DNA from: a virus
Length of the DNA stretch: 35,472 nt
Direction: 5' to 3' (one strand)
Virus record (IMG/VR): IMGVR_UViG_3300043772_001073
Location: 1-35,472 of that record
Of the stretch, positions 33,265 to 35,453 are shown piece by piece (position 1 is the first letter of the stretch; each line of letters starts with the position of its first letter). The translations under genes and the position numbers were made by a program. Below the pieces are notes generated by a model. The model was given only the letters and a program-made list of their open reading frames with translations. It was not told where the DNA came from and made no database searches.

Positions 33265-33586
33265 ACAGACAGCGGTTAAATTAACAACTCATTATGCTGA
33301 TGATGAAGTTTGGTATTATGAATTAAAGCATGAGTTCAAAGATTTTATTTTTGAGATCTGCATGTATGATGATAAAGATCAAGACGATGAAAGAGTAATG
33401 GATTTTAGTATTACTAATAAAAATCCACATCATCATCCAATAAGATTCTTTTTTAAGAATAAAAATGGTAAAGTAAAATTTGCAGTAGATTCAAGTGGTG
33501 ATAATGGATCTTCTTATCGAACTGGAGAAGATTGGGAACAAATAAGCGATTTTGCAGACTCATTTAAGCGATTAATCAACTCATGA
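33254..33586 (+). CDS. AT-rich accessory protein, 110 residues
   Basis: The gene has about 25% GC in 33361-33480, while the next gene has 55% GC in 33601-33660, so it is probably a recent acquisition. The protein starts MASKQTAVKLTTHYADDEVW and is acidic and aromatic, with mixed alpha/beta character and no recognisable motif. I chose ATG 33254; ATG 33245 and GTG 33230 are in frame upstream. It overlaps both neighbours slightly (ATGA at the 3' end), so it is neatly fitted into the operon. Function is unknown. Confidence 0.6.
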   Translation: MASKQTAVKLTTHYADDEVWYYELKHEFKDFIFEICMYDDKDQDDERVMDFSITNKNPHHHPIRFFFKNKNGKVKFAVDSSGDNGSSYRTGEDWEQISDFADSFKRLINS

Positions 33587-34173
33587 CACGCGAAGAATAC
33601 ATCACCTACCCAGCGGTATCAGCAAGCCGCATCAAACGGCACTACACTGGAGACATCAGCTACGCTAAGGCATCGCTGAACTACGGCAAGGACTTTCACT
33701 ATGCGCTGCTCGAGTGCGAGTATGACACGATGGGCGATGCAGTGCGAAACACCTACGATGCAATCCACCAGGTGCAACTCCTTGGCGAGATGTTCGACAA
33801 GAGCGAGAAGGAGAGCATCGTTGTGAGCGAAATCACAGTGCATGGCAAGACCGTGCTCGGCAAGGGCGCAATGGACCTATGCTGGGATGAGATGAAGATC
33901 ATCGCTGATGTGAAGACCACAACCGCCAAAAGCTTGCAGGCCTTCGCTGATGACATGATAAAACACTGCAACCATGTGCAGGCCGTTTGGTATTCAATGC
34001 TGATGGGCTGGAATCCGAAGGACTTCTACTACATCGGCGTGCCGCCCAAGGTCAAGAAGTCAGGGCAGTTCAAAGACCTCTACCTCTACCGGCACAACCA
34101 GCAAGAGCTCGACCAGGCATACGAGCTTATCGCAGGCTTCTTGAATCAATTTGATGGGAACTATGGGAAGTAG
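33583..34173 (+). CDS. PD-(D/E)XK exonuclease (RecE/Cas4-like)
   Basis: A 196-residue nuclease probably used for phage recombination or DNA end processing. The motifs follow the RecB/Cas4-type order: GKDFHYALLE with H39, GAMDL with D98, ADVKTT with D109 and K111, and QAVWY with Q133 and Y137. This fits the family of exodeoxyribonuclease VIII-like phage enzymes. The length is short but contains the full core. Upstream genes encode an SSB-like and a coiled-coil protein. It overlaps the next gene by 11 bases. Confidence 0.82.
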   Translation: MTREEYITYPAVSASRIKRHYTGDISYAKASLNYGKDFHYALLECEYDTMGDAVRNTYDAIHQVQLLGEMFDKSEKESIVVSEITVHGKTVLGKGAMDLCWDEMKIIADVKTTTAKSLQAFADDMIKHCNHVQAVWYSMLMGWNPKDFYYIGVPPKVKKSGQFKDLYLYRHNQQELDQAYELIAGFLNQFDGNYGK

Positions 34174-34426
34174 AAGGCACAGCCAGCTGGTCATCGATTA
34201 CGTTGTTGAGTATTACTCGCACACCAAGACGGCAGAGATTGCCAAAGTGCTTGGCATATCTGAGTCAAGCGTTTATAACATCGCATTCAGGCTCGGGCTA
34301 AAGAAAGCGCCTGAGTATATCCGAGAGGTGCATGGCAAAGTTGTGGCAATTGCCGGTGTGAAGAATAGATTCACCAAAGGACATAAACCTTGGAATAAAA
34401 AAGATGACACACGGATCACTATTTAG
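34163..34426 (+). CDS. Helix-turn-helix protein, 87 residues (GHKPWNK tail)
   Basis: Residues about 8-50 form an HTH: DYVVEYYSHTKTAEIAKVLG, then ISESSVYNIAFRLGLKK. The C-terminus RFTKGHKPWNKK matches the (F/Y)xxGHxPWNKG-type element seen in proteins related to homing endonucleases and HTH regulators of phages. No HNH catalytic residues are present, so it is either a DNA-binding regulator or the remnant of a homing endonuclease. ATG 34163 was chosen; ATG 34154 and TTG 34151 are in frame upstream. It overlaps the methyltransferase start by 23 bases. Confidence 0.68.
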   Translation: MGSRRHSQLVIDYVVEYYSHTKTAEIAKVLGISESSVYNIAFRLGLKKAPEYIREVHGKVVAIAGVKNRFTKGHKPWNKKDDTRITI

Positions 34427-35453
34427 CGGAATTGGCGGCTTTGATTTAGCCGCTGAGTGGATGGGTTGGGAGAACATATTCCACTGCGAATGGAATCCAT
34501 TCGGGCAAAAAGTATTAAAATATCACTTTCCAAATTCAATAAGTTATGAAGACATCACAAAGACAGATTTCACTATTCACCGAGGACGAATTGACATCCT
34601 CACAGGGGGATTCCCCTGCCAGCCATACTCAATGGCCGGAAAGCGACTTGGAAAAGAAGATGAGCGACACCTCTGGCCGGAGATGCTTAGAGCGATTCGA
34701 GAAATTCGGCCGCGTTGGGTTGTGGGCGAAAATGTTTTCGGCCTTGTTAATTGGTCAGGAGGGTTGGTATTCCACGAGGTGCAGGCTGACCTGGAAGCTC
34801 AAGGGTACGAGGTTCAATCGTATGTACTTCCAGCTGTATCCGTCAACGCACCGCACCGAAGAGACAGAGTTTGGTTTGTTGCCTACGCCTCAGGCAATGG
34901 ACATGATGCAGAACCCTCCTCGGCAAATAACGCAATCGGGAAGAATAATAAGCAACCAAGGACACAACGGAAGCGCACCGCTAAAAGATTTAGCGATGAA
35001 TGGCCTACTTCCGACGCCAATAGCAAGCGATATTCATCATGCAGAGAGGGTCAAGACATTGAAAGAGACAAGAGCGCAAACAATGGCGAGTCGAAAAAAC
35101 GGAGCGAAAAGACCGAATGGTCTAATGGATTACTTGGACTTCAATCAAATGCTTCCGACACCAACAGCTCAAGTAGCCAAACATGGACACAGCGACAAAT
35201 ATTGGGACAATCGAATAGGAAAAAGGCAAATGGACATAGCAATGTGGAATGCACAAACCAATGGAAAAACTTCCCAACTGTCTCCCCAGTTTGTACTCGA
35301 GATGATGGGCTTTCCGACAGACTGGACGGAATTACCTTTTCTAAGTGGCGAAACGAATCAATCAAAGCCGGAGGAAATGCCATAGTTCCGCAAGTAGTTT
35401 ACCAAATTTTCAAAGCTATTGAGCAGTATGAAACTCAGGCCATACCAAGATAA
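34404..35453 (+). CDS. DNA cytosine-C5 methyltransferase
   Basis: A 349-residue enzyme that methylates cytosine in DNA, probably to protect phage DNA. Motif I is GSLFSGIGGFDLA, motif IV is GGFPCQPYS with the catalytic cysteine (Cys 71), motif VI includes ENV, motif VIII is APHRRDRVWF, and motif X is GGNAIVPQV near the end. The region between VIII and X, which should recognise the target, is low-complexity (Ser/Asn/Lys-rich). It is overlapped in another frame by a second family-like ORF (34546-35385). The gene crosses the circle join and overlaps the helicase. Confidence 0.9.
   Translation: MTHGSLFSGIGGFDLAAEWMGWENIFHCEWNPFGQKVLKYHFPNSISYEDITKTDFTIHRGRIDILTGGFPCQPYSMAGKRLGKEDERHLWPEMLRAIREIRPRWVVGENVFGLVNWSGGLVFHEVQADLEAQGYEVQSYVLPAVSVNAPHRRDRVWFVAYASGNGHDAEPSSANNAIGKNNKQPRTQRKRTAKRFSDEWPTSDANSKRYSSCREGQDIERDKSANNGESKKRSEKTEWSNGLLGLQSNASDTNSSSSQTWTQRQILGQSNRKKANGHSNVECTNQWKNFPTVSPVCTRDDGLSDRLDGITFSKWRNESIKAGGNAIVPQVVYQIFKAIEQYETQAIPR
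34546..35385 (+). CDS. Overlapping-frame protein with LLPTP repeats and MMGFPTDWTELPF end
   Basis: A 279-residue ORF lying wholly inside the methyltransferase gene in the +1 frame. It is not low-complexity: SQGDSPASHTQW, a Trp/Cys-rich region (WYSTRCRLTWKLK, about 74-86), three LLPTP-type repeats (111-115, 154-158, 202-206) and LSPQFVLEMMGFPTDWTELPF (245-265). I recognise this combination as a recurrent phage protein type, sometimes annotated as methyltransferase-related, which elsewhere is a stand-alone gene. Its role is unknown; functional coupling to the enzyme is plausible. Its ATG is internal and has no clear Shine-Dalgarno site. Confidence 0.65.
   Translation: MKTSQRQISLFTEDELTSSQGDSPASHTQWPESDLEKKMSDTSGRRCLERFEKFGRVGLWAKMFSALLIGQEGWYSTRCRLTWKLKGTRFNRMYFQLYPSTHRTEETEFGLLPTPQAMDMMQNPPRQITQSGRIISNQGHNGSAPLKDLAMNGLLPTPIASDIHHAERVKTLKETRAQTMASRKNGAKRPNGLMDYLDFNQMLPTPTAQVAKHGHSDKYWDNRIGKRQMDIAMWNAQTNGKTSQLSPQFVLEMMGFPTDWTELPFLSGETNQSKPEEMP

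Follow-up and report, generated by a model that had tools for sequence, protein, structure and literature searches.

In the C5-methyltransferase M.EcoHK31I, according to the 1995 work of Lee et al., the small open reading frame is nested within the large one and read in a different frame. This enzyme naturally consists of two polypeptides, of which the large one carries motifs I-VIII and X together with the predicted target-recognition domain (TRD), and the small one carries motif IX (PMC3404938). In M.AquI, another split C5-methyltransferase, the small subunit carries both motifs IX and X (PMC3404938). The locus described in this study lies in a window of 35,472 nucleotides, which is the whole stretch of viral DNA that was analyzed (IMG/VR record IMGVR_UViG_3300043772_001073, positions 1 to 35,472), and it contains two overlapping reading frames, here named alpha and beta. 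Likened by description, the alpha/beta type of M.EcoHK31I (YGGCCR) and M.EaeI shares with this locus the split of the motifs, with motif IX on the smaller polypeptide. However, the modules preceding motif IX are multiple here, are located in the small subunit and are exchanged between phages, whereas the predicted TRD of M.EcoHK31I is placed in the large subunit. The division of motifs between two polypeptides is also found in M.AquI, but motif X stays on alpha in the present locus. The nested two-subunit layout is already known in kind.

A 'DNA-cytosine methyltransferase' pair of the Paenibacillus larvae Fernvirus phages (SHELLY_55/56 in Shelly, gp61/gp62 in Leyra) has the same nested +1 layout with homologous alpha and beta; in contrast to the window, the pair possesses different cassettes, is ~31-35% identical and is annotated as two genes. 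The inner reading frame of Shelly is recorded as 'g55 internal gene' with no function given. For two prophage copies in E. coli, the RefSeq annotation gives alpha only, though beta is present in the +1 frame.

The target-recognition domains of the multispecific methyltransferases of Bacillus phages are about 40 aa each. Titles cited in PMC8936443 describe the enzymes of SPR, phi3T and H2 as C5-methyltransferases with successive target-recognition domains in one enzyme. The modules of beta, which lie in tandem, have a median size of 44 aa and are shared at differing positions, may be compared with these domains. Those enzymes are single-chain, whereas the array here resides in a separate out-of-frame subunit and is of its own, LPTP-headed type. 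In the limited selection of literature searched, no description was found of the family-wide universality, the breadth or the cassette array reported below.

The outer frame encodes a probable catalytic subunit

Alpha (34404..35453, plus strand, starting with ATG, 349 aa) matches PF00145 in Pfam (1e-46), phrog_363 (1.1e-74) and TIGR00675. It carries the motifs that define a C5-cytosine DNA methyltransferase, all on the plus strand: motif I (34416-34439), motif IV GGFPCQP with its PCQ (34605-34625), motif VI GENV with its ENV (34725-34736), motif VIII APHRRDR with its RxR (34848-34868) and motif X GNAIVPQ (35373-35393). The motif residues are invariant among the relatives. No motif IX is recognisable in alpha, and thus the chain lacks what a single-chain C5-methyltransferase has in the same polypeptide; the motif is present in beta instead.

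AlphaFold2 predicts a confident catalytic core in residues 1-165, the catalytic loop excepted, and confident motif X helices. Residues 170-307 have a pLDDT of ~30 and are predicted to be disordered, and the composition between motifs VIII and X is rich in S, N, K and R. Based on pLDDT and the substitution pattern, the variable region (34896..35273, plus strand) is regarded as a disordered linker whose DNA codes for the beta modules in the +1 frame. Upstream, a small HTH protein (34151-34426), weakly similar to a family of phage HNH endonucleases, overlaps the alpha start by 23 bases, and the open reading frame preceding it (33583-34173) resembles exonuclease VIII / DUF3799.

A second reading frame is nested in the first

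The preliminary description had placed an open reading frame at 34546-35385 in the +1 frame inside the methyltransferase gene at 34404-35453, and these positions are exact. The beta gene (34546..35385, plus strand, ATG start, 279 aa) is wholly within the alpha gene. Beta matches the phage family phrog_1008, 'DNA methyltransferase' (1.2e-27), and has no match in Pfam or NCBIfam. No solved structure was found with a profile of beta. The AlphaFold2 model of beta alone is poor (mean pLDDT 55.6), and a Foldseek search with this model, which is too poor for a meaningful search, returned nothing.

The Trp/Cys-rich N-terminal block of beta (residues 1-110; 34546..34875, plus strand) lies opposite motifs IV-VIII of alpha. 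Its invariant residues among the relatives include C47, F64, L68, G70, W74 and W83, and residues 61-100 are predicted to form a helix plus a beta-hairpin with pLDDT of ~75-84. From these invariant residues and the predicted fold, the block is a candidate alpha-binding part.

Both frames are kept open among relatives

A total of 353 relatives were retrieved by searching viral contigs with beta. In the first 87 loci examined, beta was found in the +1 frame of alpha in all 87 and strictly inside alpha in 83; the remaining four comprise one locus at a contig end and three with alphas broken by a stop. Since most of these loci had been chosen for having beta, the search was repeated using alpha only, with three distant queries from this window, Salmonella phage SEN5 and Paenibacillus phage Leyra. 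Of the loci fetched by alpha alone, 239/239 had a match to beta in the +1 frame, and in most of them it was nested completely within alpha. As a negative control, ordinary single-chain C5-methyltransferases from Bacteroidota genomes were inspected, and the +1 beta was absent from 28/28 of them; the control set also held three nested-type loci, two of them in genomes picked for carrying beta. The claim of the preliminary description that a second conserved protein is encoded in another frame within the methyltransferase gene was borne out: instead of stops or a lack of conservation in the +1 frame of relatives, the opposite was found, with both frames open and conserved.

Selection acts on both the alpha and beta frames. 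Synonymous-codon shuffling of alpha in the window gave 6.6 expected stops in the +1 span, and none of the 500 shuffles remained open; in a further shuffle of alpha, the beta span contained a mean of 7.1 stops and stayed open in 0.02% of cases. The converse shuffling of beta codons in the window gave 7.0 expected stops in the alpha frame from motif VIII to the beta end (0/300 open), and a further beta shuffle gave 6.9 stops in the alpha linker (0.5% open). Among 154 close pairs, the ratio of third- to first-position differences in alpha reaches 2.45 and 2.22 in the flanks where alpha alone codes. Across the overlap it drops progressively, down to 0.81-0.84 in the variable region and the motif X overlap. 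The ratio is low where beta codes for the modules and motif IX, and the alpha first position is the beta third position there. Substitutions in the variable region of alpha are accordingly concentrated at beta third positions. The low-complexity region between motifs VIII and X had been suspected of being constrained by the other frame; here the ratio falls, the composition is rich in S, N, K and R, and the pLDDT is low. Within alpha-conserved codons 121-162 and 291-326, relatives share +1-frame identities of 0.66 and 0.73, against 0.33 and 0.32 for the null expected from alpha alone. The codon shuffles, the codon-position ratios and the +1 identity above the null together indicate that neither frame is a mere side effect of the other.

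An untranslated +1 frame that merely follows from the composition of alpha would agree with the absence of a clear Shine-Dalgarno sequence upstream of beta and with the omission of beta from most annotation. This explanation is extremely improbable given that no shuffled alpha stays open, that the +1 identity is far over the null, that the silent-position signal shifts to the beta third position, and that beta occurs in hundreds of diverse loci and is absent from ordinary methyltransferases. Judged from its conservation, beta is a real gene.

Cassettes and motif IX in beta

The stretch of beta that separates the conserved N-terminal block from motif IX is made up of LPTP-headed modules with a median size of 44 aa. 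Where the header pattern was found, one to six modules occur per beta, mostly one to four; 66 of the 332 unique betas have no module under the LPTP header pattern used. The window beta has three modules on the plus strand: module 1 (LLPTPQAMD..., 43 aa, 34876..35004), module 2 (LLPTPIASD..., 48 aa, 35005..35148) and module 3 (MLPTPTAQV..., 51 aa, 35149..35301), the last running into motif IX. Cassettes 95-100% identical to module 1 are found in other phages, for example in loci L007 and L014, and the one in L007 is identical to it but occupies another slot, the second of six. Module 2 has an 89% identical cassette in L029, where the N-terminal block is 65% identical. Module 3 is 94% identical to a cassette in L021, though the N-terminal block there is just 62% identical, and shows 54% identity to its counterpart in L001 despite an 88% identical N-terminal block. 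The same module type appears at differing ordinal positions in different phages. This pattern, as read from the sequence comparisons, denotes cassette exchange. By analogy, and from the mosaicism, the modules are candidate target-recognition cassettes, and each would recognize one target.

Motif IX of the methyltransferase (LSPQFVLEMMGFPTDW, 35278..35325, plus strand) was assigned to beta by hhalign and by its distance to motif X. In the hhalign comparison of beta with single-chain C5-methyltransferases, the sole match places LSPQFVLEMMGFPTDWT on motif IX, and this match is short and weak (E 0.0067, a single comparison). The distance from motif IX to motif X along the DNA has a median of 18.67 codons over 298 loci, the fraction reflecting the frame offset, and is similar to that in single-chain enzymes. 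The order of motif VIII, modules, motif IX and motif X along the DNA also resembles a single-chain enzyme.

The same parts are found differently joined in other phages. Two actinophages supply the link. In Gordonia phage Gudmit, a single chain (gp58, L525) unites motifs I-VIII with LPTP modules, a motif IX-like segment and motif X; the direct match to gp58 is weak (E 0.018). In Mycobacterium phage Jarcob, Gudmit-type parts are split, with motifs IX and X on the second protein. Indel variants among the relatives (L353, L410/L411 and L349) re-join parts in one frame: beta runs through motifs IX and X in L353, and alpha runs into the beta modules and motif IX in L410 and L349. L353 and Jarcob look AquI-like. 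From the motif IX in beta, the order and spacing along the DNA, Gudmit and Jarcob, and the indel variants, the best reading of beta is as the out-of-frame portion of the enzyme that holds target recognition and motif IX.

The location of this part between motifs VIII and X, as in a single-chain gene, and the fusion of the pieces in the indel variants could also be explained if beta were reached by ribosomal frameshifting, yielding a frameshifted single-chain enzyme with motifs I-VIII followed by the TRD and motif IX. The ~110 codons of beta that overlap alpha motifs IV-VIII are nevertheless conserved and have a start of their own. The beta ATG is 142 nt downstream of the alpha start in the window, its position is conserved near +142/145/175 among relatives, and an in-frame stop is found just upstream of it in many family members. 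The own ATG at a conserved distance and the upstream in-frame stops make frameshifting from alpha very unlikely. Moreover, casual, non-systematic inspection around motif VIII revealed no conserved shift site, and rejoining motif X would need two shifts.

Out-of-frame HNH endonucleases inside phage methylases have been described (PMC11855218), and HNH-like insertions are present in some relatives. These precedents raise the alternative that beta is an independent protein, such as a homing or regulatory DNA-binding protein, parasitising the methyltransferase gene without being a subunit. In contrast to the patchy ShiLan-type element, beta is universal in the family and matches neither HNH nor any other nuclease family in the Pfam, PHROG and NCBIfam searches. 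With motif IX absent from alpha and present in beta, and with Gudmit joining LPTP modules and catalytic motifs in a single polypeptide, an independent protein is highly improbable. Beta as a subunit remains the preferred reading.

Variants among relatives

Seven Bacteroidales alphas (L138, L150, L151, L152, L156, L157 and L175) have an in-frame TGA in the variable region between motifs VIII and X while beta is open; in these, either the portion with motif X would be cut off from the rest of alpha, or the enzyme is in decay. In the SEN5-type alphas (L169, L260, L272, L298, L526 and L527), a motif II-like 'YYNEIDPxAAQWL' and a motif III-like segment precede 'FFAGIGVWSYAL' (motif I) and PCQ (motif IV), and the motif order appears permuted. 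A Sphingobacterium locus (L142:3813-4879) has two extra beta-like open reading frames downstream of the nested pair and outside any alpha, which are possibly stand-alone spare specificity subunits.

About 50 viral contigs encode alpha-type methyltransferases with a stop-containing six-base insert exactly between the Pro and the catalytic Cys of GGFPCQP (L420-L491 among the viral contigs, as well as L012, L013, L385 and L350); the window DNA has no such hexamer. The insert is composed of TAA or TGA plus mostly CCN, CTN or TCN, for instance TAACTA, TGACCA and TAACCA. For the TAACTA group, purifying selection on alpha is seen both before and after the stop, and it extends to the tail where only alpha codes. 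The hexamer scans required a stop, and non-stop inserts were invisible to them; loci fetched without this condition gave 312 matches with no insert, four with a stop hexamer and none with a non-stop hexamer. Three pattern matches were obtained from 395 scanned Bacteroidota genomes. Translational recoding at the hexamer is possible, and readthrough, bypass, a split enzyme or decay may each account for it.

A variant genetic code was rejected for the clade with the stop hexamer, as TAA ends 51/99 long open reading frames there. A third, +2-frame reading at the hexamer was rejected, being 4-37 codons long, and the hexamer-free window DNA gives a similar short reading by eye. A 12-nt insert apparently at the catalytic Cys in some loci turned out to belong to a different gene. 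HNH-endonuclease-like inserts were recognized by eye, with no family search, upstream of motif IV and ahead of the stop hexamer in the alpha frame of L442, L457, L458, L461, L464, L471 and L479. L473 has an HNH-like insert, likewise recognized by eye, in the +1 (beta) frame, like the ShiLan element (PMC11855218).

A probable two-subunit enzyme from one stretch of DNA

The motifs of the two proteins are complementary, with motif IX in beta and the rest in alpha, in the order and spacing along the DNA of single-chain enzymes. The locus very probably encodes a two-subunit C5-cytosine methyltransferase, with a catalytic alpha and a specificity subunit beta bearing a cassette array, from one DNA stretch. 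Alpha in frame 0 would provide the SAM-binding catalytic domain with motif X, its central part being a disordered linker. Beta in the +1 frame would supply the missing motif IX together with three consecutive target-recognition cassettes, each headed by LPTP. The N-terminal block of beta probably docks on alpha. We infer that beta is translated in the cell, that the two form a heterodimer, and that activity depends on both subunits. The assembled enzyme would shield the phage genome from host restriction, in an anti-restriction role, and a cassette swap would change its specificity with both frames staying open. The proposal that the +1 protein is tied both to target recognition and to a protein partner held up in computational comparisons. 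The rarity ascribed to dual coding on this scale did not: it is the rule within this methyltransferase family, the nested kind is known from M.EcoHK31I, and the inner reading frame already appears in some records of Paenibacillus phages.

More broadly, we consider it fairly likely that C5-methyltransferases of a broad phage and prophage family, spread over Bacteroidota, Bacillota and Pseudomonadota, always have the specificity subunit encoded within the gene of the catalytic subunit in another frame, as an obligatory arrangement, and that new specificities evolve by exchanging modular multi-target cassettes that have to stay open in both frames. If this is true, specificity evolves under a two-frame constraint. 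Standard annotation passes over the inner gene even in E. coli reference genomes, so that most databases do not show beta, although it looks essential to a common phage enzyme, and specificity predicted from alpha only would leave out the part that determines it. Across most of the module region, one of the two frames encodes a conserved protein while the other encodes a disordered linker; the family therefore offers a large natural set for the study of two-frame co-evolution, and its cassettes make specificity directly testable.
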